From positions 1 to 64,000 of the forward strand of contig CANGFT010000008.1 of assembly GCA_947453205.1 (NCBI GenBank): DNA of 64,000 bases, read 5' to 3'. The notes beneath the pieces are model-generated. The model was not told where the DNA came from, searched no databases, and was given only the letters and a program-made list of their open reading frames with translations. Position 1 is the stretch's first letter. Every line of letters starts with the position of its first letter. The DNA comes from Beijerinckiaceae bacterium (GTDB lineage Bacteria > Pseudomonadota > Alphaproteobacteria > Rhizobiales > Beijerinckiaceae). Positions 3 to 56,347 of this stretch are shown here, one piece after another. The translations under genes were made by a program, and so were the position numbers.

Positions 3-890
3 TACTCCCTCATTCTGCCGGTCGTGCTCTGCATGGTCTATATCGGCGCCTTCGAGGGCAAGCGTCAGTGGGGCGATCTCTATTCGCTGCTGTTCTTCGG
101 CGTCTTCGCCTGGGCGATGAAGCACTTCAAGTGGCCGCGTCCGCCGCTGGTGCTGGGCTTCATTCTCGGCGGCATTCTTGAGCGTTACATGTTCATCTCC
201 ATCCAGCGCTATGGCGTGTCGTGGATGTGGCGTCCGCTCGTGGTCGTGATGTTCGTCATGGCGCTCCTATCGCTTCTGCGTCCCTTCCTGCAGGACGTGA
301 AGGCGCATGGCGGATTGAAGGGCATGCTCTCTGACTTCCACGCGCCCAAGTTCGCATGGAACCAGTTGTTCCCGGCCTTCATGATCGTCATCTTCCTCGT
401 GATGATGGCCGAGGCCCTGACCTGGAACTTCTACGCCAGGATCATCCCGACCATCGTGGGCACGGGAGCCTTGCTCTTCGCAACGCTCTCCCTTCTCAAC
501 GATGTCTTCAAGGGGGATCTCCACAAGGCTCGCTCCGCTGCGGCGGCGGCCAAGGGCGAAACCGAAGAAAAGATGCACATGGACATCGGCAGCAACATCA
601 CCCATCTCTCACCCACGACGATCTTCCTGCGTGGCGTGATCTTCTTTGGATGGATGGTGGGCTTCCTGATCTCGATGGCGCTGATCGGTCTCATCCCGAC
701 CGTTCCGATCTTCATCATCGCCTTCATGCGGACCGAAGCGAAGGAGCCCTGGAGCATCACGCTTCCGATGGCGATCTTCATGACGATCTTCATCTACTTC
801 CTGTTCGACTGGCTGCTCGCCATCCCGTGGCCCGGCTCTTTCCTGGGCGACGCCTGGCCGTTCTGGAAGGAACATATGCCGAGCGCCTGA
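3..890 (+). CDS. tctA: Tripartite tricarboxylate transporter permease TctA, C-terminal part (5' truncated by window edge)
   Basis: This is the large membrane subunit of a TTT (TctABC) secondary transporter, which moves carboxylates across the inner membrane after delivery by a periplasmic TctC protein. The reading frame is open to the left edge, so the gene starts outside the window; about 295 of the usual 500 residues are visible. Several hydrophobic segments are evident, together with the TctA-like run WPRPPLVLGFILG followed by ERY and a Ser/Arg-containing loop, and a Trp-rich end. A strong terminator follows 18 bases after the stop. No tctB or adjacent tctC is seen, so its partners are probably upstream. 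It is the only TTT membrane gene in a window with ten tctC genes. Family assignment is firm; substrate is unknown. Confidence 0.9.
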   Translation, partial: YSLILPVVLCMVYIGAFEGKRQWGDLYSLLFFGVFAWAMKHFKWPRPPLVLGFILGGILERYMFISIQRYGVSWMWRPLVVVMFVMALLSLLRPFLQDVKAHGGLKGMLSDFHAPKFAWNQLFPAFMIVIFLVMMAEALTWNFYARIIPTIVGTGALLFATLSLLNDVFKGDLHKARSAAAAAKGETEEKMHMDIGSNITHLSPTTIFLRGVIFFGWMVGFLISMALIGLIPTVPIFIIAFMRTEAKEPWSITLPMAIFMTIFIYFLFDWLLAIPWPGSFLGDAWPFWKEHMPSA

Positions 891-908
891 TCGAGGGAGT
901 GCAAACCG

Positions 909-938
909 GGGCCGTCGCAGCGATGCGGCGGCCCTTTT
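909..938 (+). terminator. Rho-independent terminator of tctA
   Basis: An 11-bp stem (909-919 with 924-934, one G-T wobble), a GCGA tetraloop, and a TTTT run at 935-938 lie just after the tctA stop. Confidence 0.8.
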
Positions 939-957
939 CATTTGTCCTGCGGGCAAG

Positions 958-988
958 AAAAAGGCCGGAGCGCCAATGGTGTCCGGCC
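958..988 (-). terminator. Rho-independent terminator of the SnoaL-like gene
   Basis: On the minus strand GGCCGGA (988-982) pairs with TCCGGCC (969-963) around a 12-base loop and is followed by TTTTT (962-958). It sits 35 bases past the stop of the minus-strand gene ending at 1023. Confidence 0.75.
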
Positions 989-1022
989 GGTCGTCAGGGG
1001 TTGTTTCGGGCTGCCCGAGGCT

Positions 1023-5282: not shown

Positions 5283-6947
5283 ATGAAGGTCGCTGAAGCC
5301 ATCTGCCATTCGCTGGTCTGTGAAGGCGTCCGCTTTGCTGCGGGGATCACGGGACAATCCATCGGGCATGTCGCCGACGCCCTCGCCGAGCACGACGAGG
5401 TGAATGTGATCTATGCGCGGCAGGAGCGGGTCGCCTTCGATATCTGTGACGGCTTCGCCAGAGCAAGCGGCAGGCCGGCGGTGGTTTTCTCGGACGCAGG
5501 CCCCGCGGCCGCCAACGCCATGGGGGGGCTCGTCAACAGTTGGGGCGATTCCGTGCCGGTCCTGTTCATCGCCGGGCATAACAACCGCAGCGACATGCCA
5601 ACCGGCGACACCAAGGAAATTCCCTTCCGTGCGCTCTTCGGCCCCGTCAGCAAATGGGTTGCGGTCATCGAAGAACCCGAGCAGGCAGGGCCCTTGCTGC
5701 GGCGCGCTTTCATGCATCTGACCACCGGCAGACCGGGACCGGTCGTGATCGGCATGCCCTATGACATATCGTCAAAGCTCATCCATGACTTCACCTACGA
5801 GGCGGTTGGGCAGCGTCCACGCGTCCGCGCCGCAGGCGATCCCGCCGCTGTGGCTGCGGCTGCTGATATGCTTCTGCGTTCAGAGCGACCCTTCGTCTAT
5901 GCAGGCGCCGGTGTGCTTTTTTCTGAAGCGACCCCCGAACTCATCGCCCTTGCGGAGGCGCTCGCCCTCCCTGTCGCGACGACGTTGAACGGCAAGAGCG
6001 CCTTTCCCGAGGACCATGAGCTGGCTCTTGGAATCGGGGGCTTCGCACGCGCGCAATATGGCTCGTTGCCAGCCACGGTTCTGGCTCAGGAAGCCGACGT
6101 GATCCTGACCCTTGGCTGCGGCTTCAAGAAACATGCGACCCGGGGCCCGCGCCCGATTGGTTCGCGTCACATCCAGGTCGATGTCGATCCCGGCGAGATC
6201 AACAAGCACCACATCGCCGATGCGCCGATCCTTGGCGACGCCAAACTCGTGCTGTCGCAGCTTCTTGAAGCGGTCCGCGCGCGCAAGGCGACGCGTCCTG
6301 GCATGGCGCAAACGCGGGCGCGCGTCGCCGCCCTGCGCGACAGATGGAACACCGTCTGCGCGCCGCTGCTGACGTCCGAGCAGACGCCGGTCAACCCGTT
6401 TCGCGTGACCCGGGAGCTCGCCCGACTTCTCCCGCGCGACCGCAGTATCATGCTGCATGATGCGGGCTCCGTGCGCGGCACCACATGCCAGCACTATCCC
6501 GCGATCACGCCGCGCTCGTTCCTTGGCTTTGGCGTTCAAAGCGCCATGGGCTGGTCAATCGGCGCCGCGATCGGCGCCAAGGCGGCGGAGCCGACAAAAA
6601 TCGTCTGCGCGGTCATTGGCGAGGAAGCGTTCAATGAAACAGCCATGGATATCGAGACATCGATCCGCGGACGCCTGCCGGTGCTCATCATCGTCAAGAA
6701 CAACCGGGCCTATGTCGATCATGACGGCGGCAAAAGTCAGAAACTCGCGACGGCGCGCTTCGCGGAAGGCGTGGACATAGCCAGCGTTGCGATGGCGCTC
6801 GGGGCGCGCGCCTTCAAGGTCGAAGAGCCATCAGTCCTGGCCAAGACGCTCGCGGAGGCGATCGCCAGCGTCGAGGCGGGGCGCACCGCCGTCGTCGAGA
6901 TCAAGACCATACGCGAAAAGGCGAGCCTGCACCGTCTCTGGGAATAG
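5283..6947 (+). CDS. Thiamine diphosphate-dependent enzyme, acetolactate synthase-like
   Basis: A 554-residue protein with the three domains of the POX/acetolactate synthase family: Pyr domain (about 1-165), central domain (about 190-320) and PP domain (about 370-540). The ThDP-activating glutamate is present in the YARQER segment near residue 46. The cofactor motif normally written GDG...NN reads G446-E-E...N473-N, so the metal-binding Asp is replaced by Glu. Start is set by GGAGGA 3-8 bases before the ATG; the frame is open further upstream. It is convergent with a tctC gene only 12 bases away. The substrate is probably a 2-keto acid or a CoA ester, but this is inference. Confidence 0.85.
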   Translation: MKVAEAICHSLVCEGVRFAAGITGQSIGHVADALAEHDEVNVIYARQERVAFDICDGFARASGRPAVVFSDAGPAAANAMGGLVNSWGDSVPVLFIAGHNNRSDMPTGDTKEIPFRALFGPVSKWVAVIEEPEQAGPLLRRAFMHLTTGRPGPVVIGMPYDISSKLIHDFTYEAVGQRPRVRAAGDPAAVAAAADMLLRSERPFVYAGAGVLFSEATPELIALAEALALPVATTLNGKSAFPEDHELALGIGGFARAQYGSLPATVLAQEADVILTLGCGFKKHATRGPRPIGSRHIQVDVDPGEINKHHIADAPILGDAKLVLSQLLEAVRARKATRPGMAQTRARVAALRDRWNTVCAPLLTSEQTPVNPFRVTRELARLLPRDRSIMLHDAGSVRGTTCQHYPAITPRSFLGFGVQSAMGWSIGAAIGAKAAEPTKIVCAVIGEEAFNETAMDIETSIRGRLPVLIIVKNNRAYVDHDGGKSQKLATARFAEGVDIASVAMALGARAFKVEEPSVLAKTLAEAIASVEAGRTAVVEIKTIREKASLHRLWE

Positions 6948-6959: not shown

Positions 6960-7988
6960 TCATTTCCCCGAAGCTGCGGGGTCAAGCACCTGCCGCAAGC
7001 GGGCGGCGACGTCGGGCGGCGTCGCAGCGATCCGGGCGCTGAGGCGGTCAAGCTCCTCGCCGGACACAGGGTTGATGTCCAGCGTCTGACGCGCGGCGTC
7101 CCGCAACAAATCCGGATCTTTCATGGCCTCGTCAAAGGCGCGGCGCAGCGCCGTCAGGCGTTCAGCGGGAACGCCGGGCGGCGTGAGCAAGGGGCGACCG
7201 AACTCCTGCCGCGCGATGATGACGGTCATGGCCTGTTTCGCGCTCTCATCCTTGGGCATTTCAAGGAGCGGGACATCTTTCAGGTCGGGATGTGGCCGGA
7301 ACCCATACTGGGCGATGATCTTGATCTTTTTCTCGGCAAGCCACTGCTGGTTGCGCGCCTTGATCGTCACCAGGCCGATGCCCGCGTGCCCCATGACCTC
7401 GCCTCGCTCCATCGCGAGATCGATATGCGTGGTGCCCTCATAGCCCGCCACAATCTTGAATTTGGTGCCAAGAAAAGCGTTCGCCGCGAGGGGATTGTCC
7501 ATTGTGGCGGTGCCATGCGCGACAGCGCCGACGACGACCTCTTTTTCATAGAGATCGCGGATGGAATCAATGCCGGACGTATGCCAGGTCATGACCGTAA
7601 TGGCTTCGGGCGCCGAACTGCCGATCCAGCCGAATTTCGATGCGTCAAACCGCGCGTTCTCCGGGCTCAGCATGGGCGCTGTGGGCATGCCGTTCGTGAT
7701 CGCGCCCAGAACAGAGCCATCACGCGGGGCTGTGTTGTAGAGCTGGTTCGTGAGCGTCAGGCTGCCCGCCCCGGGGACGTTCTGAACGATGATCGAGGGG
7801 TTTCCCGGGATATATTTGCCGATATAGGCGGCCGCCAGCCGCGCCGATATGTCGTAGCCGGACCCGGCCGCAGCCCCGACCCGCAGCTGAATCTGCTTGC
7901 CGCGATAAAAATCCGCAACCGAATCCTGCGCCTGCGCGGGCAGACAGGCGGCGGCGAATGCTAATCCGAACGCTGCGACGAGCTTCAT
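6960..7988 (-). CDS. TctC/Bug-family periplasmic substrate-binding protein
   Basis: A 342-residue binding protein of the TTT system, which captures a carboxylate in the periplasm and hands it to TctAB. A signal peptide of about 20 residues ends in AQAQ. The core motifs are GSGYD with a following SARL, IPGNPSI, QNVPGAGSL and LYNTAPRDG. The frame extends to 8879, but GGGAGGA seven bases before the ATG at 7988 fixes the start. The gene stands alone, divergent from an aldo/keto reductase whose start is 124 bases away; the pair may share a control region. Ligand unknown. Confidence 0.9.
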   Translation of the reverse strand: MKLVAAFGLAFAAACLPAQAQDSVADFYRGKQIQLRVGAAAGSGYDISARLAAAYIGKYIPGNPSIIVQNVPGAGSLTLTNQLYNTAPRDGSVLGAITNGMPTAPMLSPENARFDASKFGWIGSSAPEAITVMTWHTSGIDSIRDLYEKEVVVGAVAHGTATMDNPLAANAFLGTKFKIVAGYEGTTHIDLAMERGEVMGHAGIGLVTIKARNQQWLAEKKIKIIAQYGFRPHPDLKDVPLLEMPKDESAKQAMTVIIARQEFGRPLLTPPGVPAERLTALRRAFDEAMKDPDLLRDAARQTLDINPVSGEELDRLSARIAATPPDVAARLRQVLDPAASGK

Positions 7989-9054: not shown

Positions 9055-9984
9055 TCAATCCTCGCGATAGGAGCGGGCCTTGTCCACCGCCTCCTGCCCT
9101 CCAATGCCAAGGCCCAGCCCATAGAGGCGATCAGAATTGACGGCCTCGGGATAAAAGGCGGACAGGTCATGGCCGGGATAATGCTTCAGCATATAAGCAG
9201 CGATCTCCCCGCGCGTCGTGATCCAGACTTTATCGCGACCCTTCACATATCCAATCAGGTCTTCGAGGGGGCGAACCCGGTGTCCGTTGGCGTAATGGGG
9301 ATGCGATCCATAGGCCAGCATCTTTGGAAAGCCTCTCTTTCCCTCATCATAAAGACAATCGAAATAATCCTTCCACTGCTCGCAGACTTCGCGCGGCGTC
9401 AGGGTCTGCCGAGCGGCGGGCGTATCGGAGACCGCATAGCTCGTCATGCCCACGAGCTTTTTTCCATTGACTGGAATGATGAAAGGAACCTCGGCGTTGC
9501 GCAATCCGCAGGAATAGGTGAAGCCCTGTTCGGCAAGGATCGAGAATGTCTCCGCCGTCAAATGCCCGCCCGCGCTTGAGAAGCCGTACGACCTCTCGCC
9601 TGTCACCTCAAGGATAGCTTTGTTGGTTTTGGCGATGGCCTCCGCCTGTTCCTCAACAGTAAGGTCGTGCAGGAACTCATGCGTCCAGCCCTGCACGATG
9701 AATTCATGGCCTTTCGCCCGGATGGATCGCGCGAGTTCAGGGAACAGGGTCACCGTAAGTCCATCAACATAACAACTTGTGCGGATCTGATGGCGATCCC
9801 ATAAGTCGACAAGCCGCTGCATGCCCCCGGTGTCGGCGAAGGCCGCCTCGTAAATGGGGCGCATGGCGCGCTTGTATTTCGCTTTGGGCCTGGCGCCCAC
9901 GGCATGTTCGGGAATCTCCCAGGACATGTTGAAGACGACCGCAATGAAGGCGCCGCCGGGCCATTGGAAATCAGCTTTATACAT
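9055..9984 (-). CDS. Polysaccharide deacetylase-fold hydrolase (PuuE/PgdA-like)
   Basis: A 309-residue NodB-homology protein of the kind that includes allantoinase PuuE, cyclic imidases and HpPgdA. The N-terminal strand is AVVFNMSWE rather than the NodB TFDD. A metal-type H-x3-H is present as H102 and H106 in THEFLHD. FSSAGGH and the C-terminal VWITTRGEIA are family features. Given the surrounding catabolic genes, amide or imide hydrolysis is likelier than cell-wall work; that is inference. GGGGG lies four bases before the ATG, and a GTG directly upstream is possible. It is the last gene of an operon with a tctC and a ThDP enzyme, and a tandem paralog of the gene upstream. Confidence 0.82.
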   Translation of the reverse strand: MYKADFQWPGGAFIAVVFNMSWEIPEHAVGARPKAKYKRAMRPIYEAAFADTGGMQRLVDLWDRHQIRTSCYVDGLTVTLFPELARSIRAKGHEFIVQGWTHEFLHDLTVEEQAEAIAKTNKAILEVTGERSYGFSSAGGHLTAETFSILAEQGFTYSCGLRNAEVPFIIPVNGKKLVGMTSYAVSDTPAARQTLTPREVCEQWKDYFDCLYDEGKRGFPKMLAYGSHPHYANGHRVRPLEDLIGYVKGRDKVWITTRGEIAAYMLKHYPGHDLSAFYPEAVNSDRLYGLGLGIGGQEAVDKARSYRED

Positions 9985-10025
9985 CACACCCCCAAGTAAA
10001 AGAGACCGGAGCCAATCCGCCCAAT

Positions 10026-10988
10026 TTATTCACGGCGGAAGCTGAGCGCCTCCCGCACCGCCTCCTCGCCGCCAAGTCCTATCCCCAGCCCATAATGCCG
10101 ATCCGATGCGACCGCTTCGGGATAGAATTTCGAGAGATCATGATCGGGATAATTCTCAAGCATCCAACGCGTGATTTCGCCGCGCGTGGTGATCCACACC
10201 CCCTCACGGGATTTCACATAGTCTATAAGCTCCTCAAGTGGCCGGGTGCGGAAAGCATGCGACAGAATGGGATGTGTTCCATAGGCGAGGAATTTAGGAT
10301 GGCCGCGCTTGCCCTCGTCATACATGGCGTCAAAGGCGTCCTTCCACATGCCGATGATGTCGCGAGGGCTTGCATCTGAAATGGAGTAATTGCCAAAATC
10401 GGTCAGAGCGTAACTCGTTTGACCGACCAACTTGCGGCCATTGCAGGGGATGATGAAGGGCACATCCGCGTTGCGCAAGCCGCAGACATAGTCAAAACCG
10501 AGATCCGCACAGATTGGAAACGTCTCGGCGGTCACATGTCCACCAGGGCTTGAGAAACCCGTCGCCTTGATCCCAAGGGCGTCAAACGCATCTTTTGTCA
10601 TTTTAAGGGACCGTATCTGTTCATCTACGGTCATGTCCCAGAAATAGTTGTGATTCCACCCCTGCACGAGAAACTCATGCCCTTCCGCCGCAACCTGCTG
10701 CGCAAGATCTGGAAACAGCGAGACCGTATGGCCATCCGCGTAGCAACTCGTGCGGATATTGTGCCGTCGCCACAGATCGAGCAGCCGTTGCATGCCCCCT
10801 GTCTCGCCATAGGCATGTTCGTAGATCCAGCGCATGCCACGCTGGTATTTGGCGTGGGGCGGCACGCGCTCATGCGCTTTCTGGTTGTTCGAAGGCGTGC
10901 CGAGCGATTTCTCCCAGGTCTCCCAGGACATGTTGAAGACGACGGCGATATGGGCGCCGCCGGGCCAGGCGAATTGACATGAATACAT
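10026..10988 (-). CDS. Polysaccharide deacetylase-fold hydrolase, tandem paralog
   Basis: A 320-residue protein closely similar along its length to the next gene downstream (shared AVVFNMSWE, CGLRNA-VPFIIP, VWITTRGEI and a matching C-terminus), so the pair arose by duplication. The second histidine of the H-x3-H motif is replaced: H113 is kept, but W117 stands where the paralog has H106. In the PuuE subgroup a Trp here goes with metal-independent hydrolysis of cyclic amides, so the two copies may differ in metal need. An insertion of about ten residues follows SWE. It starts 9 bases after the ThDP enzyme gene, in the same operon. Confidence 0.82.
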   Translation of the reverse strand: MYSCQFAWPGGAHIAVVFNMSWETWEKSLGTPSNNQKAHERVPPHAKYQRGMRWIYEHAYGETGGMQRLLDLWRRHNIRTSCYADGHTVSLFPDLAQQVAAEGHEFLVQGWNHNYFWDMTVDEQIRSLKMTKDAFDALGIKATGFSSPGGHVTAETFPICADLGFDYVCGLRNADVPFIIPCNGRKLVGQTSYALTDFGNYSISDASPRDIIGMWKDAFDAMYDEGKRGHPKFLAYGTHPILSHAFRTRPLEELIDYVKSREGVWITTRGEITRWMLENYPDHDLSKFYPEAVASDRHYGLGIGLGGEEAVREALSFRRE

Positions 10989-13883: not shown

Positions 13884-14612
13884 ATGCCTGTCGCTGTCCT
13901 GACGGGAGGCGCGAGCTGGTTCGCCCGCGAAGCCGCTCATTTGCTGCTCGACGATGGTTGGACGATCGTCCTTGGCGAAATCAATGAGACTAACCTGCGC
14001 GAGGTTCTTGAGGCCTTCCCGGGCGCGCCAGTCACCGGCGCAAGGCTTGATGTGACCGACCTCGGGGATGTCCGGCGTTTTGTCCGTTGGGTGACGGAAA
14101 CCCACGGACAGATCGACGCGCTGGTGAACATTGCGGGCGGCACCAATTATCTGCAGATGCCACGGCGGCCTTTTCACGAAATGCCCCCTGAAGATTGGGA
14201 TCTCGTTTTGAAGCCCAATCTTTATGGCGTTCTCAACTGCTGTCATGCAGTGCTGCCGGGCATGATCGAAAAGCGAAACGGCGTCATCATCAATCTGGCG
14301 TCAGGCATGGGCCTGCGTGGATCAGCGAAGATGAGCACCTACACCGCAGCAAAGGCGGCGGTCATCGGCTTCACCCGGTCCATCTGTCAGGAAGTCGGTC
14401 CCTATGGAATCAGGGTCAATTCCATTGCACCGGGCAGCGCTGAATCGAGATGGCACCCGGATCTGCAAAAAGGCGGGGAGCGCCTGCCTCCCCTGGGATC
14501 TCGGACCAGCGCGCGCGACGTCGCCAACGCCATCGCATTCCTGATTTCGGACAAGGCGAGCCATATCACGGGCGCCTGTCTTGACGTATCCGGCGGTTCG
14601 TCGCTGCATTAG
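13884..14612 (+). CDS. Short-chain dehydrogenase/reductase with degenerate cofactor motif
   Basis: A 242-residue classical-size SDR. The active-site Tyr and Lys are intact in TYTAAKAA, and the NIAGG strand and PGSAESR segment follow the family. The nucleotide-binding motif TGxxxGxG is unusual: it reads TGGASWFA, so both later glycines are lost. This would crowd the pyrophosphate site and may change cofactor use. GGAGGAGG stands before the ATG. It is the first gene of an operon with a flavin monooxygenase, a second SDR and a tctC. Confidence 0.85.
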   Translation: MPVAVLTGGASWFAREAAHLLLDDGWTIVLGEINETNLREVLEAFPGAPVTGARLDVTDLGDVRRFVRWVTETHGQIDALVNIAGGTNYLQMPRRPFHEMPPEDWDLVLKPNLYGVLNCCHAVLPGMIEKRNGVIINLASGMGLRGSAKMSTYTAAKAAVIGFTRSICQEVGPYGIRVNSIAPGSAESRWHPDLQKGGERLPPLGSRTSARDVANAIAFLISDKASHITGACLDVSGGSSLH

Positions 14613-14622
14613 GAACATAAGA

Positions 14623-46360: not shown

Positions 46361-47089
46361 TCAGGCCGCCTTCACATCGTCGTAGTCGGCGTCATCGACG
46401 CTTGAGCGCGCCAGATCGTCCTCAAGACGCAACTGCGCTGAATCAGCCCGCAGCAGAAAGCAAAATGCGACGAGCATGCCGAGGCCGAAAAGCCCCAAGG
46501 TCAGGTCGCACCATGCGAAGGAAACGCCAAACAGCGTCCAGACCGGGGCGCCAAATGTCAGGATCAACATATTCATGAGAATGATGAGCGCCCGCATTTC
46601 TGTCGGGCCTGAGCCCAGCAGGCTGACCTGAAAGACGCCATCGATATTGAGGCGCACAAGCACATAGATGGTGAGAGCCTGATAGCCGAACAAAGCGAGG
46701 GCCGCTGGTTCGAACCTGATGTATGGCGAGGCAGCCATGCCGCCGACGATCAACATATTGCCGATGACGTCGATATTCTGGTCCAGAAAGAACCCATATC
46801 GCGGCCGCTCGATCCGTCGATGTCTGGCAAGGCTTCCATCGAGAGAGTCGCCGAACCAGTGCATGACGAGACCCGCGGAAGCGAGCCACAAAAATTGCGG
46901 TGAGACGGCGCAAAGCGCGTAGCCGACAAGTGTGACGAAGGCGCCGAAGAGGCCGAAAGCGGTCAGCAAATCGGGCGTGACCCAGCCCGGCAGACGCGCC
47001 ACTAGCCAGTTGATCGCGGTGCCTTCGCACCGCGAAAGCACGCTCGCATTGAAACGCTCGCCGCCAAAGGCTTCTTTATCCTCAGCCAT
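46361..47089 (-). CDS. CDP-alcohol phosphatidyltransferase family protein
   Basis: A 242-residue integral membrane enzyme with about six hydrophobic segments. The family motif is present as DGSLAR...G...D...D (Asp/Gly pair then FFLDQNID), with nine rather than the usual eight residues between AR and G. It would place a phospho-head group on an alcohol or lipid. Its start overlaps the end of the glycosyltransferase gene upstream by 8 bp, so it is translated with that gene. Confidence 0.88.
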   Translation of the reverse strand: MAEDKEAFGGERFNASVLSRCEGTAINWLVARLPGWVTPDLLTAFGLFGAFVTLVGYALCAVSPQFLWLASAGLVMHWFGDSLDGSLARHRRIERPRYGFFLDQNIDVIGNMLIVGGMAASPYIRFEPAALALFGYQALTIYVLVRLNIDGVFQVSLLGSGPTEMRALIILMNMLILTFGAPVWTLFGVSFAWCDLTLGLFGLGMLVAFCFLLRADSAQLRLEDDLARSSVDDADYDDVKAA

Positions 47090-49067
47090 CGAGCGCAGGT
47101 TCCGGCGAGAACAGGGACAGGGCGGGATGGAAGAAAGGGTCGTCGCGAATGACGTCCGCCCACAGGTTGCGGAAGTGTCCCCGCTCAAGGCCATAGCGCT
47201 CGAAGGGCCGAAATGAGAACCCCCGCGTCGCCGATTGATGATGAATGAGGACCGATTGCGGGCTCATGATGGTTCTCCAGCCTGCGCGCGCCAGACGCAG
47301 ACAAAGGTCGATGTCATTTAACTCTACCGGAAAACGCTCGGCGTCAAAACCTTCGACTGCGTGGAATTTCCGCGCCTCGACTGCTATGCAGGCCCCTGTG
47401 ACGGCGCCGACCTCATGAACGACGCCTAGCCGCCCGAGATAGCCGACATGATCGCCGGGCGCGCCATGGCTGACATGGTCGGCGTATCCACCCATCCCGA
47501 CAACGACGCCCGCATGCTGTAGGGCCCCGTCCGGAAAGAGCAAGCGCGCGCCTGCCGCGCCAACGTCAGGGCGCATGACGAGCGCGGCGAGCACGCCAAG
47601 CCAGTCCGGGCTCACCACGGACATATCGTTGTTGAGAAAGACCAGACATTCGCCTTTTGCTTGCGCAGCGGCGGCGTTGCACATGGCGGAGAAATTGAAG
47701 CGGCCAGGCATAGGCATGATCCTGATGCGCGGATCATCGCGCAGGGTCGCGTAATATGCCTGAACGGACGCGTCGCTGCCGTTGTCTACGATGAGAATTT
47801 CGATGATTGGATATCCAGTCTCAAAACGTAGCCCGTTCAGGCAAGCCTTCAACAGGGGGAGTTGGTTCTTTGTCGGAATGATGATGGAAACGGATGGAGA
47901 CGCCGCAGCGACGGCAATGGTTGGGCTGGAGACGGTTTCCGGCCGCGCTGGGCAAGTCGCGAGGATTCGACGGATATGATGGACCTGTGCGTGCCTCGCC
48001 CCTTCAAGCGCGCGACGGCGCCATTCGCTTGTGTCGAATTGATCGAGCGTGAAAGCCCCCATCCGTCTGACTTTATCGACCCGCCAAAAAACGGGGCGGC
48101 CAAGATAGCCCAGCCCAGCTTCAAAATCAGCGCTCCAATCAGGCTTCAGCACCGGCGACAATGCGCCTTCGGCGCTCGCCCGCTCCTCATCGGCATAAAA
48201 ACATGCGGCCTCAGGCTCGCGAGAGGCTGTTTCCGCGATCACCGGCAAGGCGTGATCGACTAACGTGACGCTGGGATCAAACCGCGCCACGAGATCATCA
48301 GCGGCGAGATCGTCAATAATCGCCTCAGAGGATACAAACAGACGTGACGCAAGAGCCGAACGCGTGGCTTCGTCCACAAAGTCGACACTGGGCGCGCCAA
48401 TCGACCAGCCTTCCCCCTCCTGCGCAAGCAAACGCGCGACGAGAGGCGTCTGCAGCGTGAGAGGCGCTTCACTCGGCGCCATGAGGAAGCGAATATGCGG
48501 CGCTCGCTCCGGCGCATGGCGCGGCGCGTCGAGACCCGCAGGATCAAAGGGACGCATGCGCTCTGATCGCCACCGCTCATAGTCGCCCAAATGGACTCCG
48601 CCGCGGGCGAACCGTAGGGCCTGCCGCGTCTCCTGCCGGGCGTTGATGAGCCGGGCGCCAACCGCCATCAGGGCTGTCTTGCGATCATGCCGGAAGGCGC
48701 GCGGCAGGAGCCTGAGGCGCGAGACCGTCTCGACTGTTTCGATTTCGAACCCGAAAGGGCCAGTGCGATCGACGGGGGAGATCAAAATACGTGTAGCTTT
48801 GTCAGGGACGCGTCCGATCCAGGATGTCCGCCCGAACAGCGGCGCCGACATCACGTCCCATTCCCAACCATTCTCCGTTTCGAATTTGATGAGCGGACGG
48901 ATCAGATGGTCAAGATAGCTCGCGCGATAGGCGATTCGGATCCAGCGGCCGCAGGGCGGAGCCTTCTTGAAATCCAGCGCCAGCCAGGGGGAACGGCTGC
49001 GGGCGGTCAATCCGCTTTGCGTGACTTCAATGTCGTGAAACGGGACGAGGGTGACGTTCAGTTTCAT
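47082..49067 (-). CDS. GT2-family glycosyltransferase, large
   Basis: A 661-residue protein. A roughly 370-residue N-terminal part has no motif I can name, though it may hold a second, degenerate nucleotide-sugar domain. The C-terminal GT2 domain begins at VSIIIPTKNQ and carries the FLNNDMSV metal-binding Asp and the ELNDIDLCLR segment with a probable catalytic Asp. It likely adds sugars to a capsule or exopolysaccharide. The ATG at 49067 is used; TTG 49097 and ATG 49088 are open upstream. It is transcribed together with the next GT2 upstream (36-base gap). Confidence 0.85.
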   Translation of the reverse strand: MKLNVTLVPFHDIEVTQSGLTARSRSPWLALDFKKAPPCGRWIRIAYRASYLDHLIRPLIKFETENGWEWDVMSAPLFGRTSWIGRVPDKATRILISPVDRTGPFGFEIETVETVSRLRLLPRAFRHDRKTALMAVGARLINARQETRQALRFARGGVHLGDYERWRSERMRPFDPAGLDAPRHAPERAPHIRFLMAPSEAPLTLQTPLVARLLAQEGEGWSIGAPSVDFVDEATRSALASRLFVSSEAIIDDLAADDLVARFDPSVTLVDHALPVIAETASREPEAACFYADEERASAEGALSPVLKPDWSADFEAGLGYLGRPVFWRVDKVRRMGAFTLDQFDTSEWRRRALEGARHAQVHHIRRILATCPARPETVSSPTIAVAAASPSVSIIIPTKNQLPLLKACLNGLRFETGYPIIEILIVDNGSDASVQAYYATLRDDPRIRIMPMPGRFNFSAMCNAAAAQAKGECLVFLNNDMSVVSPDWLGVLAALVMRPDVGAAGARLLFPDGALQHAGVVVGMGGYADHVSHGAPGDHVGYLGRLGVVHEVGAVTGACIAVEARKFHAVEGFDAERFPVELNDIDLCLRLARAGWRTIMSPQSVLIHHQSATRGFSFRPFERYGLERGHFRNLWADVIRDDPFFHPALSLFSPEPALDG

Positions 49068-49103
49068 GGTTGAGCATGCTCGCCTCATCCGTTTCAAACC
49101 CGG

Positions 49104-50888
49104 TTAACGCGCGTCCGGCAGTTCTGTCAATTTCGAAATGACAGGGTTTGACCGATCCTTAGAAAACCATGGATTGATGGCGCGATCTTCAAAGACATCT
49201 GTTTTGTGGCGTTTTTGCAGAGTGGCCTGTTCGCGGCGGAAACGTTCGATCTTGTCAGGCGCAACGTCGCTTCCCCTTGACGCTGACTCGTGATGAATCA
49301 GCGTCGCAAAGGGCGTCCAGATCACCTGATAACCGGCTTCGAGGGCCCTCAGGCAGTAATCGATGTCATTATAGGCGATGGCGAAAGCCTCTTCGTCAAA
49401 AGTCCCTACAGCCCGCAGGCACGGCCGGGAAATCAGCATGCAGGCGCCCGTCACGGCGGAAAAACGCTGGCGCACGCGCAGGCGGCCCATGGGTCCGGGA
49501 TGATCGGCGTGTTCACCAACGAACCAGTGTCCGGCAAGGTGACTAAAACCTACGATCACCCCGGCATGCTGGAGCCTCATGTCGGGGTATAGAAGCCGCG
49601 CGCCGACGACTCCCGCATGGCTATAGGCCATGCAGGACACCATCTCCGTCAACCAGTCGGGGTGTGTGATCTCGACGTCATTGTTAAGAAGAAGGATCAT
49701 GGAGCCCGTCGCAATCTCCAGTCCCCGGTTGACGGAGCGGGAGAAGTTGAAGGGTTCGGGCTGCATCAGCACGCGAAATCGGGGGTTGGTTTGCGCATGA
49801 TGCGCATAGAGATCCAGCACGTTCTGGTCAGTCGATCCATTATCGACGACGATGATCTCAAGGGTGGGATAATCTGTCGCCGTCACCAGACCCTCGAGCG
49901 TCCGGGAGATAAGCGCCAGTTGATCGCGGCTGGGAATGAGGACCGAAACCAGCGGCCATTCCTGCGGCGCCTTGTCGAACCTGACCCGGTGCAGATCGGC
50001 GACCCTCGCCTCCCCCACGGACGCGGGCTCCTGCACACTTCCGTAATGTTCGCCGAGGGCCTTTCGCGCCGCCTCGGTCGCTTGTTTCAGAAAGCGCGCG
50101 GAATAACTCGCCCCATCGCGCCGCCAGAGATAAGCCGGATATGGCAGATGCAGGATCGTCCGTTCGTCGAGCCCCGCTGTGTAGCGCAACAGGAGATCAT
50201 AGTCCTGAGACCCCTCAAAGCCGCTTCGCAAACCGCCGATTTCTAGCAGACGGTCCCGGCGATATAGCGACAAGTGGTTGATATAGTTCACGCCAGACAG
50301 GAGCACCGGATCAAAGGCGGGCTTCAGGAAGCAGTCGACCGGGCGGAGCCGCCCATCGGCGATGATCTCATCCGTATAAAGGAACTGGCAGTCTGCATTG
50401 CGCTGCAAGGTGTCGATGATGAGGGCGGCGGCATAGGGGGCAAGGGCATCGTCATGATCGAGGAGGCCTATCCAGGTTCCCCGCGCAGCGGCGACGCCCC
50501 GATTGGTGGCTCGGGCGATGCCGCCATTTTCGCTCGATCGCAAGACCCGGATCCCCGCCTGCCCCTTGAGACGCTCCAGCCAGTTGATCGTGCCCGAAGC
50601 CGTCGAGCCGTCGTCGCTCAGGATGAGCTCACATGCTGCGCCAGCATTGGACTGGAGGTGGAAGGATTCCACCAAGTCCCTGAGATACCGAGGTTTTGTA
50701 TTATAGACTGGGACAATGAACGACAGGAATGGCTCGCCGTCCTCCAGCGATGGCGCAGCCGCGGAAGAAATCTTGAGCTTGGCCATTTTGACGGCGTCGC
50801 GGAAGTATCGTCTGACAACGAAACTGGCCCTGAGGCTGGCGACGATACGGGCGAAAGGAATAATGAGCGGCCTCTTAGGTTGGAACAT
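49104..50888 (-). CDS. GT2-family glycosyltransferase with two catalytic domains
   Basis: A protein of about 594 residues with two GT2 domains in tandem. The first begins at LSFIVPVYNT and has LLDHDDALAP; the second begins at VSVLIPSRDQ and has LLLNNDVEIT and AYNDIDYCLR. Such bifunctional proteins add two different sugars or polymerise a disaccharide. The frame stays open to 50996; I prefer the ATG at 50888 with CGGGG upstream, but 50903 and 50996 are possible. It is divergent from the capsule-export ATPase gene. Confidence 0.84.
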   Translation of the reverse strand: MFQPKRPLIIPFARIVASLRASFVVRRYFRDAVKMAKLKISSAAAPSLEDGEPFLSFIVPVYNTKPRYLRDLVESFHLQSNAGAACELILSDDGSTASGTINWLERLKGQAGIRVLRSSENGGIARATNRGVAAARGTWIGLLDHDDALAPYAAALIIDTLQRNADCQFLYTDEIIADGRLRPVDCFLKPAFDPVLLSGVNYINHLSLYRRDRLLEIGGLRSGFEGSQDYDLLLRYTAGLDERTILHLPYPAYLWRRDGASYSARFLKQATEAARKALGEHYGSVQEPASVGEARVADLHRVRFDKAPQEWPLVSVLIPSRDQLALISRTLEGLVTATDYPTLEIIVVDNGSTDQNVLDLYAHHAQTNPRFRVLMQPEPFNFSRSVNRGLEIATGSMILLLNNDVEITHPDWLTEMVSCMAYSHAGVVGARLLYPDMRLQHAGVIVGFSHLAGHWFVGEHADHPGPMGRLRVRQRFSAVTGACMLISRPCLRAVGTFDEEAFAIAYNDIDYCLRALEAGYQVIWTPFATLIHHESASRGSDVAPDKIERFRREQATLQKRHKTDVFEDRAINPWFSKDRSNPVISKLTELPDAR

Positions 50889-51045
50889 CCATGCCCCGTT
50901 CATAGGCCGATCAGATCGCGTCCCCAAGGCGTCAGAGACATTTTGGATGAAGATTTTTGAAAAGATTGCGTGTAAACAAGCAAAATCGGACACCATGGTC
51001 GTCAGCCGCCCGGTGAGCTGCCCTTCGGGACATCAGGGGTTGCAT

Positions 51046-51699
51046 GTGATTCAACTGGACAGAGTGTTCAAATTCTACACCGCCAGCGGTCAGACGAAGA
51101 TAGTTCTCGACCATGTCTCGGCGGTTTTCCAGACAGGCCGGTCCTATGGGCTCATGGGCGTGAACGGCGCGGGCAAGTCGACCCTGCTGCGGCTGATCGC
51201 GGGGACCGAGATCCCCAACTCCGGCAAGGTCCAGCGTTCCGTCCGGGTGTCCTGGCCGCTGGGATTCAGCGGCGGCTTTCATCCGCTCATGACCGGGCGG
51301 GAAAACATCAAGTTCGTCGCCCGCGCATATGGCGAGCGCATCGGAAGGGTTCTTGATTTCGTTGAAGATTTTTCCGAATTAGGCGATTACATCGATGCAC
51401 CCTACAAGACATATTCCTCTGGCATGATGGCGCGTCTGGCCTTCGGCCTGTCCATGGCGATCGAATTTGACTGCTATCTCGTCGATGAAATCACTGCGGT
51501 TGGCGACGCGCGGTTTCAGGCGCGCTGCAAACACGCCTTTGACGAACGACGCAAGAACGCGGACCTCATCATCGTCTCCCACAGCATGCAGACCATCAAG
51601 GACTATTGCGATCACGGTGCGGTGCTGGTCGATGGCCAGTTGATGATGTTCGAGAGCGTCGACCGCGCCATTGAGACTTATAATCGTCTGAACAGGTGA
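51046..51699 (+). CDS. kpsT: Capsule polysaccharide export ABC ATPase (KpsT/CtrD-like)
   Basis: A 217-residue ATPase of the capsule-export family. Walker A is GVNGAGKST, the signature YSSGMMAR, Walker B YLVDEITAVGD, and the switch His VSHSM. The length equals KpsT when the GTG at 51046 is used, six bases after AGGGG. An ATG at 50995 is also in frame. Its stop overlaps the GTG of one possible start of the KpsE-like gene. No KpsM permease gene is adjacent. Confidence 0.87.
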   Translation: MIQLDRVFKFYTASGQTKIVLDHVSAVFQTGRSYGLMGVNGAGKSTLLRLIAGTEIPNSGKVQRSVRVSWPLGFSGGFHPLMTGRENIKFVARAYGERIGRVLDFVEDFSELGDYIDAPYKTYSSGMMARLAFGLSMAIEFDCYLVDEITAVGDARFQARCKHAFDERRKNADLIIVSHSMQTIKDYCDHGAVLVDGQLMMFESVDRAIETYNRLNR

Positions 51700-51743
51700 T
51701 TGATGACGCCATTTTCGGATCATTCGAGCCTTGGAGAGCATTC

Positions 51744-53012
51744 GTGAGCTTGGAGCGAGAGCCCGGGAGCCTGCAGCCGATTCCTCCCGCACAACGCGCG
51801 CGCATGGTGTCGGAAGCGCTGTCGGACGCGGCGCGGCGCGCCCGGTTCTCCATGCGCAGCCGTCGGCGCCTGCAGGGAGGGGGCTTCCAGGCCCGGCGTG
51901 GAGACCGGCTCTTTCGGGCGGCCGCATGGATCAGCTTCTGCCTCATGGTCGCGCTGCCGACGGCGGGGGCCTCACTTTACTTTGGTCTGCTGGCTTCCGA
52001 CCAATATGTCGCTGAGTTTAAATTCACAGTTGCGGGCGCAGAGCCGACGCCGCTTGATACGCTGGGCGCGCTGACAGGCATTCCGGATGTGAGCATCATC
52101 CAGGACACGCAGATCGTCGTGAACCACCTCAACTCCCGCGCCGCCGTCGAGGCGCTGGACCGCGAAATCGGGATCAGGGCGAAATATTCGGACCCCGAGA
52201 TCGACTGGTGGGCGCGTTTCAACACAAGCAAACCCATTGAAAAGCTTGTGCGCTATTGGAACGCCATGGTGGAGACGTCGATCAAGATGCCGGCTGGCAT
52301 CGTCGAGGTCAAAGTCCGCGCCTTCCATCCCGACGACGCCCTCTCCATCAGCCGTGCGGCGCTCAAGATCAGTGAAGACCTGATCAATGAACTCAATGAC
52401 CGCATGAACCGTGACGCGCTCGCGACGGCCGAAACCGAACTGACTCGCGCAAAAGACCGCCTCGCCAAGGCGCGCCTTCAACTGGAGACGGCGCGCAATG
52501 AAGAGGGGCTGCTCACCGTACAGAGAACCGCCGACGGCATTGGTCAATTGCTGACGGACAGCAGAGGAGCGCTGCTGAAGCTTCAGCAGGATTATAACGC
52601 GCAGCTCAGATCCGTCTCCGAACAGGCTCCCCAGATGCAGGCCTTGCGTGCGCGCATCAATGCAGCGAAGGCGCAGGTCGCTGAACTCGAGGCGAAGGTC
52701 ACCAACAGCACGGGCGCCGCGCAAATGGCGGAGCCCACCCTGTCGCGCCTGATGACCCGTTTCGCCGAGCTTGACCTTGAAAAGCAGGTGGCGGAGCGGC
52801 TCTATGACGGAGCGGTCATCGCGCTGGAGGCCGCGCGTGTGAACGCCGAACGCAAGGCGATGTATCTCAAAGCATTTGTTCAGCCGAGCTTGCCCGAGGA
52901 TGCAGCCTATCCCCGTCGCACCCTGAATGTCCTCCTGACCCTATTGGGAACTCTGGCGACATGGGGAAGCCTGCTCGGGCTTGCCAGCATGATCCGCAAC
53001 CATATGGCCTGA
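51744..53012 (+). CDS. kpsE: Capsule polysaccharide export inner-membrane protein (KpsE/CtrB-like)
   Basis: A PCP-type chain-length/export protein of about 422 residues. It has one N-terminal membrane segment near residues 66-88 after a basic stretch, a periplasmic beta domain (FKFTVAG), a long coiled coil about 215-340 with LATAETELTRAKDRLAKA, and a C-terminal membrane segment followed by a short tail. It forms the bridge from the ABC unit to the outer-membrane KpsD. GTG at 51744 has GGAGAG upstream; a GTG at 51696 gives an alternative start that overlaps the KpsT stop. Confidence 0.85.
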   Translation: MSLEREPGSLQPIPPAQRARMVSEALSDAARRARFSMRSRRRLQGGGFQARRGDRLFRAAAWISFCLMVALPTAGASLYFGLLASDQYVAEFKFTVAGAEPTPLDTLGALTGIPDVSIIQDTQIVVNHLNSRAAVEALDREIGIRAKYSDPEIDWWARFNTSKPIEKLVRYWNAMVETSIKMPAGIVEVKVRAFHPDDALSISRAALKISEDLINELNDRMNRDALATAETELTRAKDRLAKARLQLETARNEEGLLTVQRTADGIGQLLTDSRGALLKLQQDYNAQLRSVSEQAPQMQALRARINAAKAQVAELEAKVTNSTGAAQMAEPTLSRLMTRFAELDLEKQVAERLYDGAVIALEAARVNAERKAMYLKAFVQPSLPEDAAYPRRTLNVLLTLLGTLATWGSLLGLASMIRNHMA

Positions 53013-53033
53013 TGTCGAAGGACGAAATCCCGT

Positions 53034-54062
53034 ATGCTCTTCAGCATCGAACATGACGAAGGCCATCGCATCACAGCCTATGTGGTTCCCGACGGTTTCT
53101 CCGGCGTCCCCACGGTGCGCCTGGTGTCAGGAGGCGTGGATGTCTTCACATGCAGCGCAAATGAGGACCGACAGGCGCTGGTCGATGCGGGGCGCCACGA
53201 AACAGGCCGATGCGGCTTCAACATAGGGACGGAGCTGGTTCCAGATCTGGCTGATCTGCAGGATCTCACGATCATCGAGCAGGAAACGGACCTTCTGATC
53301 TACCGTCGGCCGCAACCCCTTCAGATCGAGAAGAAAATCCTGCGGTTGGAGACGCATCTCTTCCCGCTCTGGCGATTCGATGAGAATTTTCGCGACAAGG
53401 CGCAGTATTTCCAGAAAGGTCTGGAGCAATTTGGCCGTGAGACCGTCACACAGATGTTGTTGCTGAACGGGATTCGCTCGGTCTATCTGAGCGGCCGCAT
53501 TTCCTATCGCAGTTTCTCCTATTGGATTGAGGATGGCTTCGAGACGGCCATCATGCTGCAGGATCCCTACGAGGAACTCGCCGAGCGCCTGCTCGTGCTG
53601 TCGCTTCTGGGCGACGCCGCGCCCAGATATCTGGGCCCGCGCGACGCCGCACGCTTCGCACCCGCCATCGCCTATGCGGTGGCGATGCCGACGAGTGAAC
53701 GACAGTTGCGCCATCACCTCATGGACATGCCATCCAGCGTGGCCGGACTTTTCACCGATCCTCTGGTGCGCCAACTGACGACGTCAAATCCGGATGACAT
53801 GGCCACTGGCGGCGCCATTGGCGCGGCCCTTGACGTGCTCGCCTCATGCGCTGTCGTGGGCCTGCGTAAGGATCCGGTTTATTTTGCGCAGGCGGTCGCC
53901 GGCTGGCTCGGGATTGATCCGCAGACCCTCACCACCACCCCGGATTTCCCTCGCGTTCCTCCCCTCGCCGCCCTGCTCAGGGAGAGCAGGGCGGTGGATC
54001 ATCTGCTTGAGCGGGATCTCGAAGTTTTTGAGTCCGTGAAGAATGCATATGGGGCAGGGTGA
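53034..54062 (+). CDS. Unrecognised protein downstream of the capsule export genes
   Basis: A 342-residue protein I cannot assign. There is no signal peptide or membrane segment. It is acidic, and its C-terminal half is rich in short helices (LGDAAPRYLG, AIAYAVAMP). It starts 21 bases after the KpsE-like stop on the same strand and is probably co-transcribed. A role in capsule assembly or control is suggested only by position. Confidence 0.6.
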   Translation: MLFSIEHDEGHRITAYVVPDGFSGVPTVRLVSGGVDVFTCSANEDRQALVDAGRHETGRCGFNIGTELVPDLADLQDLTIIEQETDLLIYRRPQPLQIEKKILRLETHLFPLWRFDENFRDKAQYFQKGLEQFGRETVTQMLLLNGIRSVYLSGRISYRSFSYWIEDGFETAIMLQDPYEELAERLLVLSLLGDAAPRYLGPRDAARFAPAIAYAVAMPTSERQLRHHLMDMPSSVAGLFTDPLVRQLTTSNPDDMATGGAIGAALDVLASCAVVGLRKDPVYFAQAVAGWLGIDPQTLTTTPDFPRVPPLAALLRESRAVDHLLERDLEVFESVKNAYGAG

Positions 54063-54229
54063 GGGCAGGGGCGTCAATTTATCTCAGGTTCAACAAATCT
54101 GGAGTTTTCGTTCTTGAATTCACCTGTGGTCAGGACTGCAAGCAAACCGCCTATGAACAACCTTCATAGCTTCGATGCCTGGGGTGACGTCCTGGCGTCC
54201 AGCGCCTGAACCTCACAAAAATGACTTCG

Positions 54230-54892
54230 TCAGGGCGTTCCATCGCTGGCGTCACTATTGCCGGCGCTCGGTCGCCACATGGGGGCTGAGATCGTCTCTG
54301 CGAAATTCGCGAACATCAGATTGAAGGCGATGCTGATGCGTTCCGTCGAACCCTCATTGGAGGGCACGTGGTGTCGGAGCCAGGATGGAAAGAGCACCAT
54401 GCGCCCGGCTTTGACTGGCGCGACGGCGACATTGGCCGTGAAACGGCCAAGTTTGGCGCGCGGCATGATCACGCCAGGACGGGGATCCTGCAGGATGAGG
54501 TGGGATCCAACCGCCGGCACATCGACGTAGTAGACGCCGCTCAGATAATTGTTTGGATGATTGTGGGTGGGGTGATAGCTGCCGGGAGGGTTGATGTTGG
54601 CCCAGCAGCCCGTGATGATCATCGGATATTGCGCGACCTGCAGATCCTCAGCGACGCTGGCGCAGGCCATCTCGACAAACCTGACGAATTCCGCGAAGGC
54701 CGGACGTCTGTGCAGATCCTGGGGGGTCTGCCAGTTGCTGCCGCTCGGCACTTTCGGTCGCGGCGCGATGATATGTTCAATCTCACTCTTGAGCTTGACA
54801 TTCAGGGGGCCCGCATCCGCCGGGGGCAGGTCCACGGACCAAAGCGGCGTCGGAAAGAGGTCATGAGCTTCAGGCTTCAATTTTGGGTCCAT
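54230..54892 (-). CDS. Putative 2OG-Fe(II) oxygenase (TIGR02466-like)
   Basis: A 220-residue double-stranded beta-helix protein of the TIGR02466 family. Candidate iron ligands lie in HPTHNHPNN and the late His in LRHHVPSN; the Arg in STERISIAFN would bind the 2-oxoglutarate C5 carboxylate. Its start is at an ATG at 54892 with no strong ribosome site; the frame extends to 54988. It stands alone between the capsule genes and the tctC remnant. Substrate unknown. Confidence 0.78.
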   Translation of the reverse strand: MDPKLKPEAHDLFPTPLWSVDLPPADAGPLNVKLKSEIEHIIAPRPKVPSGSNWQTPQDLHRRPAFAEFVRFVEMACASVAEDLQVAQYPMIITGCWANINPPGSYHPTHNHPNNYLSGVYYVDVPAVGSHLILQDPRPGVIMPRAKLGRFTANVAVAPVKAGRMVLFPSWLRHHVPSNEGSTERISIAFNLMFANFAETISAPMWRPSAGNSDASDGTP

Positions 54893-55142
54893 ATTTTCAA
54901 ATCTCAACTGGCTCACCGATTTGCCTGATGCGGCCCTGCAAAGGCATGCCCCGGCGGCAGGATAACGGCGCCGTCCATTTATCGTCAAACGGCGTCATGT
55001 CCATGTCGTCTTTGAATGACGCCAAGATTTCAGAGCGACTTCTTTGCGATTGGGGGGCTCAGACCGTGATATTCTCCGGAAGGTTTTTGACATAGTTTGG
55101 AGGCCAACTTATATATCAGCTTAATTGCGGAGACAGGCAAAA

Positions 55143-55285
55143 ATGAAACCCGCTGGCGTCATGCCCTTCATATTGCTTCTGGCAGTGATCGCAGTTCCTG
55201 CCCGCGCGCAACCGACGTCTATCTCCGGCTTATCAGCAGATATTTGAGCCGACACATTCAGGGCCGCCCTCCCGAGAGTTCGGCA
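55143..55285 (+). pseudogene. Decayed tctC remnant
   Basis: An ATG with GGAG upstream opens a signal peptide (MKPAGVMPFILLLAVIAV, ending ARAQ), followed by a stop after 34 codons. In another frame from 55211 the text DVYLRLISRYLSRHIQGRP matches the region after the ligand loop of TctC, closest to YARLFARYLPRHLEGRP in the gene at 39885. The FYxGKTI...GxxY stretch between them is missing, so an internal deletion of some twenty codons shifted the frame, and the rest of the gene is gone. It sits tail-to-tail with the intact tctC at 55304. Confidence 0.65.
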
Positions 55286-55303
55286 CGAACCTTTGTTCGG
55301 CGT

Positions 55304-56347
55304 TCATTTCACTTGTGCGGAGGGGTCAAGAATGGCGCGCAGGCGCGCAACGGCTGCAGGCGGGGTCGCCATCAGTTCTTGCGTTAAGTCGTCCAGTTCT
55401 TCGCCAGTGATGGGGTCGATTTCAAATTCGAACCGCTCAGCCTCAGCACGAAGTCCCGCGTCCTTCATCGTGGCCGCAAAAGCTTGCCGTATGGCCTGCA
55501 CCCTTTCCAGCGCGGTGTCGGGCGGCATGAGGAAGGGTCTGCCATATTGCATGCGCGCATACATGAACCGAACAGCCTGAAGATCAGTTTCGTTCTCCGG
55601 TTTGTCGAAAAGGGGAACATCTGGAAGCTCCGGGTGTTTTTTCCAGCCGAACTGAGCGATGACTCGCAACTGTCCACTCTTCACCTCATTCATCTGACTG
55701 GCTTTGACGCTAGACCAGCCAATGCCGGCAAGGCCTTGCAATTCGCCACGCTGAATCGCGAGGAAAATTTTTGCAGCGCCGTCATAACCTGCGATGATCT
55801 GAAACTTCGTGCCGAGCAGTGCATTCGATATTTGTGGAAGATCGAATATGGCGCCGCCCAGTCCGGACGCGCCCACGATCGCGGTCTGGCTTTGCAGATC
55901 CTTGATGGTTCGATGCGGTGATTGTCCGGACACGACTACGACGTCGATCTCTGGCGCATTGCTGCCAATCCATTTGAACTGACGCGGGTCAAACTGCGCC
56001 GTCCCCGGTGAGAGCAGGGGCGTTGCGGCGACAGCATTGGATACAAGCGCAAGAGCGGTTCCATCACGCGGCGCGGTTCTGTACATCTGATTTGCGAGGC
56101 TCAGGCTGCCGGCGCCCACGACATTTTGCACGACAACGGTCGGATTTCCGGGAATATGTTGGCCGATGTGCCGGGCTACCAGACGTCCGGCGAGATCGTA
56201 TCCTGAGCCTGGGGGAAATCCGACTCGCAACTGCAAATGCTTGCCACGATAAAAATCTTCGGGGCTTTCTGCAGCCAGCGCGTGTGAGAGGGAGAGCGCG
56301 CCCGCAATCCAACCGATCGCCACGTTTTTGAACATCGCCTTCCCCAT
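55304..56347 (-). CDS. TctC/Bug-family periplasmic substrate-binding protein
   Basis: A 347-residue protein, isolated from the main tctC array by about 14 kb of other genes. The signal peptide ends in HALAA. Motifs: GSGYDLAGR, IPGNPTV, QNVVGAGSL, YRTAPRDG; it resembles the genes at 6960 and 16985. The start may be 56347 or 56335 (GGAAGG upstream). No enzyme is coupled to it. Confidence 0.88.
   Translation of the reverse strand: MGKAMFKNVAIGWIAGALSLSHALAAESPEDFYRGKHLQLRVGFPPGSGYDLAGRLVARHIGQHIPGNPTVVVQNVVGAGSLSLANQMYRTAPRDGTALALVSNAVAATPLLSPGTAQFDPRQFKWIGSNAPEIDVVVVSGQSPHRTIKDLQSQTAIVGASGLGGAIFDLPQISNALLGTKFQIIAGYDGAAKIFLAIQRGELQGLAGIGWSSVKASQMNEVKSGQLRVIAQFGWKKHPELPDVPLFDKPENETDLQAVRFMYARMQYGRPFLMPPDTALERVQAIRQAFAATMKDAGLRAEAERFEFEIDPITGEELDDLTQELMATPPAAVARLRAILDPSAQVK

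Follow-up and report, generated by a model that had tools for sequence, protein, structure and literature searches.

In tripartite tricarboxylate transporter (TTT) systems, a receptor binds an acid and delivers it to TctA and TctB, and an ion gradient drives uptake. Expansion of orphan TTT receptors and the sharing of carriers among them have already been proposed for Rhodoplanes and Bordetella (PMC5994714; PMC5812351, PMC4996985, PMC8556258), and a review allows for TctAB fusion “in some rare cases” (PMC5812351). Here we analyze a 64,000-nt stretch of a Beijerinckiaceae genome (CANGFT010000008.1, 1–64,000; hereafter the window, whose positions serve as coordinates and whose receptor genes are named by their lowest coordinate), in which a sequence-only reading had found ten TctC-like genes; the ten genes are real. 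Their products are probably periplasmic receptors from a divergent TTT branch, which we term YD type. We consider it fairly probable that YD receptors and a one-chain, fused TctAB constitute a distinct kind of TTT system; in this genus, expansion was confined to the receptors (about 150 in this genome), with the number of fused carriers staying at two.

The ten window receptors are clearly homologous to one another, and receptor N-termini resemble signal peptides (judged by eye). The Pfam TctC model (PF03401) matched six of the ten at or above its cut-off and one just below it, with no match to the other three, and the structure predicted for receptor 16985 has the TctC/Bug fold. A glycine-rich loop with aspartate and arginine is present, D45 and R49 being invariant in all ten; the loop aspartate is kept in 62 of 67 YD and 28 of 29 ordinary receptors, and the arginine in 61 of 67 and 29 of 29. 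YD receptors share 18–22% identity with ordinary TTT receptors (Bug27, BugD, TphC, AdpC, and MatC), and differ from them by a tyrosine preceding the loop aspartate (51 of 69 aligned YD receptors), a Pro-Gly insertion, and Glu196 (69/69), where ordinary receptors mostly have R, H, or Q. The best matches of two YD receptors to solved ordinary receptors reached only E-values of 1e-8 and 9e-12, and a tree of 218 receptors separates 30 ordinary receptors from 188 others with a support of 1.0. Two receptors of this genome (L088:10267 and L088:14774; 172 and 201 bits) branch outside the main YD group, from which a third, intermediate receptor type may exist. An identity as TAXI-TRAP receptors was rejected: NCBIfam TRAP_TAXI (TIGR02122) scored 24.2 and 20.9 bits in two of the ten receptors against a cut-off of 84.35 and matched none of the other eight, and the NCBIfam search returned no family name above cut-off for any of the ten.

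At the very edge of the window, a frame at 3–890 combines the tail of TctA (PF01970) with a TctB domain (PF07331). Because window bases 1–119 exactly match the end of contig C101, where the remainder of TctA is encoded, we regard the two parts as one fused tctA-tctB gene lying across two contigs. A second fusion, complete and with both domains in one frame, is encoded on C70. Both genes have the TctA and TctB domains of a TTT membrane unit, and neither belongs to an ordinary TctCBA set, with separate TctB and TctA chains encoded together with the receptor. The sequence-only reading had described the window as devoid of tctB and overlooked what is likely the shared unit; tctB is present, fused to tctA. 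In total, the genome has six tctA genes, namely the two fusions and four separate genes (C66, C42, C4, and C9), each of the four with an ordinary tctC within about 0.6 kb.

A genome search with a profile built from the ten window receptors (A1) gave at least 151 matches, a lower bound set by the scoring of 150 of 224 candidates. All 150 matches listed reach at least 126 bits, with 135 at 250 bits or more and 15 below; 144 are near full length, six are partial, and an inner stop was reported in none. The corresponding Pfam TctC search (150 of 185 candidates scored, likewise a lower bound) gave at least 36 matches over 110 bits; these ordinary receptors share no member with the YD list and, in the loci compared, score at most 58 bits with A1. 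The genome therefore has about 185 receptors (about 150 YD and 36 ordinary) against six tctA genes. These numbers support the earlier proposal that binders share membrane units, and they exclude the case named against it, a tctAB pair for each tctC elsewhere. With about 150 YD receptors but two matching fused carriers, many receptors probably feed the same two carriers.

The distribution of the two components was compared in a class sample of 289 genomes (up to seven candidates scored per genome) and a phylum sample of 398 (up to five), ignoring kinship; a strong YD match was set at E ≤ 1e-60, and all matches of the fused-type TctB marker lay at E ≤ 1e-18. Within the class, the fused-type TctB occurs in ten genomes and strong YD receptors in nine, all nine among the ten, and 279 of the 280 genomes without strong YD also lack the marker (Fisher 2.9e-16, or 8.5e-15 without our own genome, kinship being ignored). 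The nine span six families; with G646, at once the sole further strong-YD genome and the sole further fused-marker genome of the phylum sample, ten genomes span seven. Neither component was found in three genomes from three other genera of the same family. Gene order was compared at 15 fused-type loci from outside the genus (L181 is truncated where its contig stops). Six of them have a YD-type gene as an immediate neighbor, on the same strand at L176, L178, L179, and L184, convergent at L177, and represented by a weak YD-like receptor (129 bits) at L188; at L301 a single gene lies between the YD-type gene and the fused tctAB, and an ordinary receptor adjoins the fused gene at none of the 15. 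Among 28 fused loci from named records, a YD gene is directly upstream in two (L123 and L124) and a YD-type receptor lies somewhere in the fetched flank in 18. From this co-occurrence and linkage, YD receptors with fused TctAB look like a distinct TTT branch.

The closest fused TctAB proteins in named records come mostly from metagenome assemblies labelled Hyphomicrobiales, Rhizobiales, Rhizobium, and Beijerinckiaceae, and because some record names (Erken, Pavin, and Baikal) are those of lakes, the lineage would be a freshwater one. In one named Hyphomicrobiales record, a pair of fused tctAB genes is arranged head to head, one gene per strand (L102:2382–9198). With up to 34 candidates scored per genome, YD matches were present in all 36 same-genus genomes (35 genomes with at least 34 each and one with 13; a first look gave 21–349 candidates), and 24 genomes of other families in the order have 0–27 matches, weak except in G051. 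Among 40 relatives, close counterparts of single receptors are rare: the best for 20907 has 88% identity and the next 57%, the best for 12680 has 67%, and 39885 has none above 49%. Receptor sets thus differ strongly between species.

The genes beside YD receptors are distinctive in kind. Taking the 25 commonest Pfam families, besides which rarer ones may occur, 55 linked neighbors in this genome include five cupins, four short-chain dehydrogenases/reductases (SDRs), three or four thiamine diphosphate (ThDP)-dependent enzymes, three arylmalonate decarboxylases, and two each of CoA-transferase III, enoyl-CoA hydratase, UbiD, MmgE/PrpD, PEP mutase/isocitrate lyase, and amidohydrolase. In relatives, the 73 linked neighbors, drawn not at random but from loci retrieved with three window receptors, include arylmalonate decarboxylase (9), amidohydrolase (8), hydantoinase (5), ThDP-dependent enzymes (5), and luciferase-like proteins, SDR, and GST (4 each). 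Stretches without YD genes served as a control; the 108 genes taken from them belong most often to the ABC (5), response regulator (4), and kinase (4) families. YD neighbors are largely catabolic enzymes, unlike the controls, and the decarboxylases and CoA enzymes would fit carboxylic acid uptake.

Certain receptor-enzyme contexts recur in other genomes. The MmgE/PrpD-20907 pair is kept in the relative with the 88% receptor (G028). Longer stretches, fetched after a first linkage test with 1.5 kb flanks, show the 12680 receptor with the ThDP enzyme, deacetylase-like gene, flavin enzyme, and SDR in G035 and G032, and the same cluster without a called SDR in G027; the flavin enzyme is also kept on C81 of G035. 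Among eight loci with 12680-like receptors (52–67% identity), the flavin enzyme occurs in four (L300, L303, L304, and L306) and was not seen at L302, L305, L308, and L309, some of which are short contigs, compared with none of 13 other loci of the genus (Fisher about 0.012; G646 excluded, and the 13 including L307, where the receptor resembles 16985 at 71%).

Sequence shows how many receptors and carriers there are, the tctA-tctB fusion, the separate branching of the receptors, and their co-occurrence and partial linkage with fused TctAB; the fold of one receptor is predicted, and we infer a physical partnership in transport. Each YD receptor would bind one or a few carboxylic acids in the periplasm and hand them to one of the two shared fused TctAB carriers, which would bring the acid into the cell, powered by an ion gradient as is known for the family; enzymes encoded beside many receptor genes would then begin its breakdown. 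If an enzyme set acts on the ligand of its neighboring receptor, 20907 might bind a methylcitrate- or itaconate-like acid, and 39885 a UbiD substrate, either an unsaturated or an aromatic acid; 12680 and 16985 might take an alicyclic or keto acid for the flavin and ThDP enzymes, and the three receptors of the 23016–31780 run related acids that are degraded as CoA esters. A broader proposal, which we put forward tentatively and with slightly more doubt than belief, is that YD receptors and one-chain TctAB are a separate TTT class, in which one or two hub carriers would serve more than 100 interchangeable receptors, a new substrate would be gained through a receptor-enzyme cassette without a new carrier, and the receptor set would turn over rapidly between species of the genus.

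A number of observations weigh against the partnership and the cassettes. Both fused genes of this genome lack an adjacent receptor, the nearest being about 7 and 6 kb away, and a directly adjacent YD gene is missing from eight of the 15 fused loci outside the genus and from 26 of the 28 named ones. G288 has fused TctAB but no YD match (the genome is 80% complete); four genomes of the class sample (G061, G071, G242, and G327) have weaker YD-like receptors (115–180 bits) and no fused marker was found in them, the receptor of G061 adjoining an unfused tctA; and a strong YD match also occurs in G051, a genome from the same order outside those searched for the marker. Co-occurrence is, moreover, not contact. 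As for the enzymes, 40 of 65 YD genes (62%) have a same-strand non-receptor neighbor within 60 bases, compared with 176 of 259 other genes (68%), a figure that admits any neighbor where the YD figure excludes receptor-receptor pairs; enzyme proximity as such was accordingly discarded as evidence. With 1.5 kb flanks, the MmgE/PrpD gene was kept in none of seven relatives of 20907 at 50–57% identity, UbiD in none of eight relatives of 39885 at 44–48%, and the ThDP enzyme in none of the nearest relatives (at the 67% relative the flank was too short); the window’s enzymes are also absent beside relatives of 6960 (82%, G016) and 16985 (71%, G034). Overall, among the five receptors compared with relatives, the enzyme context is kept for two and changed for three: receptors can move together with enzymes, but they also switch context.

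The sequence-only reading had also placed seven of the ten receptor genes within about 60 bases of a same-strand enzyme gene, which we confirmed (within 60 bases), and had assigned a different enzyme set to each binder. The latter holds in part, relatives lending support for 20907 (in one genome) and the 12680 cluster. It fails for 23016, 27238, and 30743, which lie together in one nine-gene run, and for 6960 and 55304, which have no same-strand enzyme within 60 bases, and proximity is at background level. At the G061 locus (L190:3767–6370), the YD-like receptor scores 180 bits and the adjacent unfused TctA scores 329 against the fused type, above the separate TctA proteins of our own genome (198–218); this locus is a possible intermediate.

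If this were simply a further lineage with the orphan Bug/TctC expansion already known, YD receptors would use separate and fused TctAB alike; the shared receptor fold is consistent with this, as are the rare fusions conceded by the review (PMC5812351) and the 434 receptors, nine-gene array, and proposed carrier sharing given for Rhodoplanes (PMC5994714). We nevertheless regard it as unlikely, since all 30 ordinary receptors separate from the 188 others at full support, two YD receptors match solved ordinary ones only at the E-values given above, and YD genes track the fusion while ordinary receptors sit by separate tctA genes. The excess of receptors over carriers (about 75 to 1) could instead mean that most YD receptors are sensors or scavengers passing their ligand to signaling or ABC/TRAP units, with only the few encoded beside fused TctAB serving transport; a signaling role has been proposed or shown for some TTT receptors (PMC5994714, PMC4996985), and NMT1-like binding proteins occur near some YD genes (two of 55 neighbors; window 34966–37144). 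Kinase and response-regulator families are, however, not among the 25 commonest of the 55 and 73 linked neighbors, where catabolic enzymes dominate and ABC_tran accounts for two of 73, and we judge this explanation quite improbable. Drift or redundancy of much of the set following duplication, with few of the receptors being used, would accord with the six partial matches among the 150 listed and with the strong differences between species; it seems very improbable given the absence of inner stops from all 150 listed, the 144 near full length, and the conservation of Glu196 in 69 of 69. The partnership of YD receptors with fused TctAB remains the reading that we prefer.

Gene calls in the window (Table 1) come from a simple caller, with the bounds of 6960 adjusted by hand where the caller had joined an upstream frame, and functions were assigned by Pfam matches.

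Table 1. Receptor, carrier, and neighboring enzyme genes of the window.
Feature	Position	Strand	Remarks
Fused tctA-tctB, 3′ part	3–890	+	TctA tail 3–155, TctB domain 426–833; 5′ part on contig C101
ThDP-dependent enzyme	5283–6947	+	Pfam TPP_enzyme N, M, C
YD-type receptor	6960–7988	-	Convergent with ThDP enzyme gene, divergent from aldo/keto reductase gene
Two polysaccharide deacetylase-like genes	9055–9987, 10026–10988	-	Pfam PF01522
ThDP-dependent enzyme	10998–12665	-	Pfam; 14 bases from receptor 12680
YD-type receptor	12680–13702	-	Frame open to 13738
SDR, flavin-dependent oxidoreductase (Pyr_redox_3), SDR	13884–16967	+	Pfam
YD-type receptor	16985–17995	+	17 bases 3′ of SDR gene; structure modelled
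MmgE/PrpD family enzyme	19496–20905	+	Pfam
YD-type receptor	20907–21926	+	1 base after MmgE/PrpD
YD-type receptor	23016–24047	+	Opens nine-gene same-strand run (23016–31780)
SDR, acyl-CoA dehydrogenase, CoA-transferase family III	24079–27232	+	Pfam
YD-type receptor	27238–28275	+	Within nine-gene run
Enoyl-CoA hydratase, dienelactone hydrolase family, SDR	28328–30715	+	Pfam
YD-type receptor	30743–31780	+	Closes nine-gene run
YD-type receptor	32959–33987	+	89 bases after SDR gene (32066–32869)
UbiD family decarboxylase	38424–39872	-	Pfam
YD-type receptor	39885–40958	-	12 bases before UbiD
YD-type receptor	55304–56347	-	No same-strand enzyme within 60 bases

The idea of a unique physical array was dropped as the main point, C76 (five receptors in 14.5 kb) and C52 (five in 27 kb) being equally or more dense; C8 holds 16 of the 150 listed YD genes within 93 kb, and under random placement P = 0.038 for at least ten receptors in some 64 kb. 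The window samples, at high density, a receptor set that is spread across the genome. Recent tandem duplication of the ten receptors was likewise rejected, their highest pairwise identity being only 56% and the genome’s YD genes being interspersed in the tree among YD genes from other genera and families. A tandem pair of NMT1-like (ABC-type) binding protein genes (34966–37144) adjoins a two-domain glyoxalase/dioxygenase-family gene, and a neighboring ABC permease or ATPase gene was not called. The receptor stretch is interrupted by a surface-polymer-like block (46361–54062) with a CDP-alcohol phosphatidyltransferase family gene, two glycosyltransferase 2 genes, an ABC ATPase gene, and two genes without a Pfam match; upstream of receptor 55304, a TPR protein carrying an O-GlcNAc transferase-like domain (glycosyltransferase family 41) is encoded at 56586–58508.

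Which membrane unit is used by the many orphan TTT receptors is a question raised in PMC5994714 and PMC5812351, and it is narrowed here to two fused carriers. If the proposed partnership is true, it would supply a function for a large group of periplasmic proteins and allow ligands to be guessed from gene neighbors, with related genomes that encode a YD receptor beside fused TctAB as small test systems. Our searches of an open-licence library brought up no text on a divergent receptor branch tied to TctAB fusion; that tie is the new part, orphan expansion and carrier sharing being already published.

Unlike ordinary TctCBA systems, in which TctA and TctB are separate, the YD-linked carrier is one chain. 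TphC with its unlinked TpiBA resembles the present case in that the receptor is encoded with catabolic enzymes and away from the membrane genes (PMC8556258); it differs in having an ordinary receptor, separate TpiB and TpiA, and assayed uptake and binding, where the YD system is known from sequence. Arylmalonate decarboxylase genes adjoin TTT receptors in the loci described in PMC4996985, as they do here (three of 55 linked neighbors, and nine of 73 in relatives), but the receptors here are YD type, a division of receptor types that the passages considered do not make. The Rhodoplanes set likewise has many orphan receptors, few membrane units, small arrays, and a proposal of shared carriers (PMC5994714). 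Its census used TBLASTN at 1e-15 with ordinary receptor queries, and YD receptors may fall below that cut-off because two of them matched solved ordinary receptors at weaker E-values, albeit with another program and database. In this genome, the expanded branch is the YD type, with a fused carrier.

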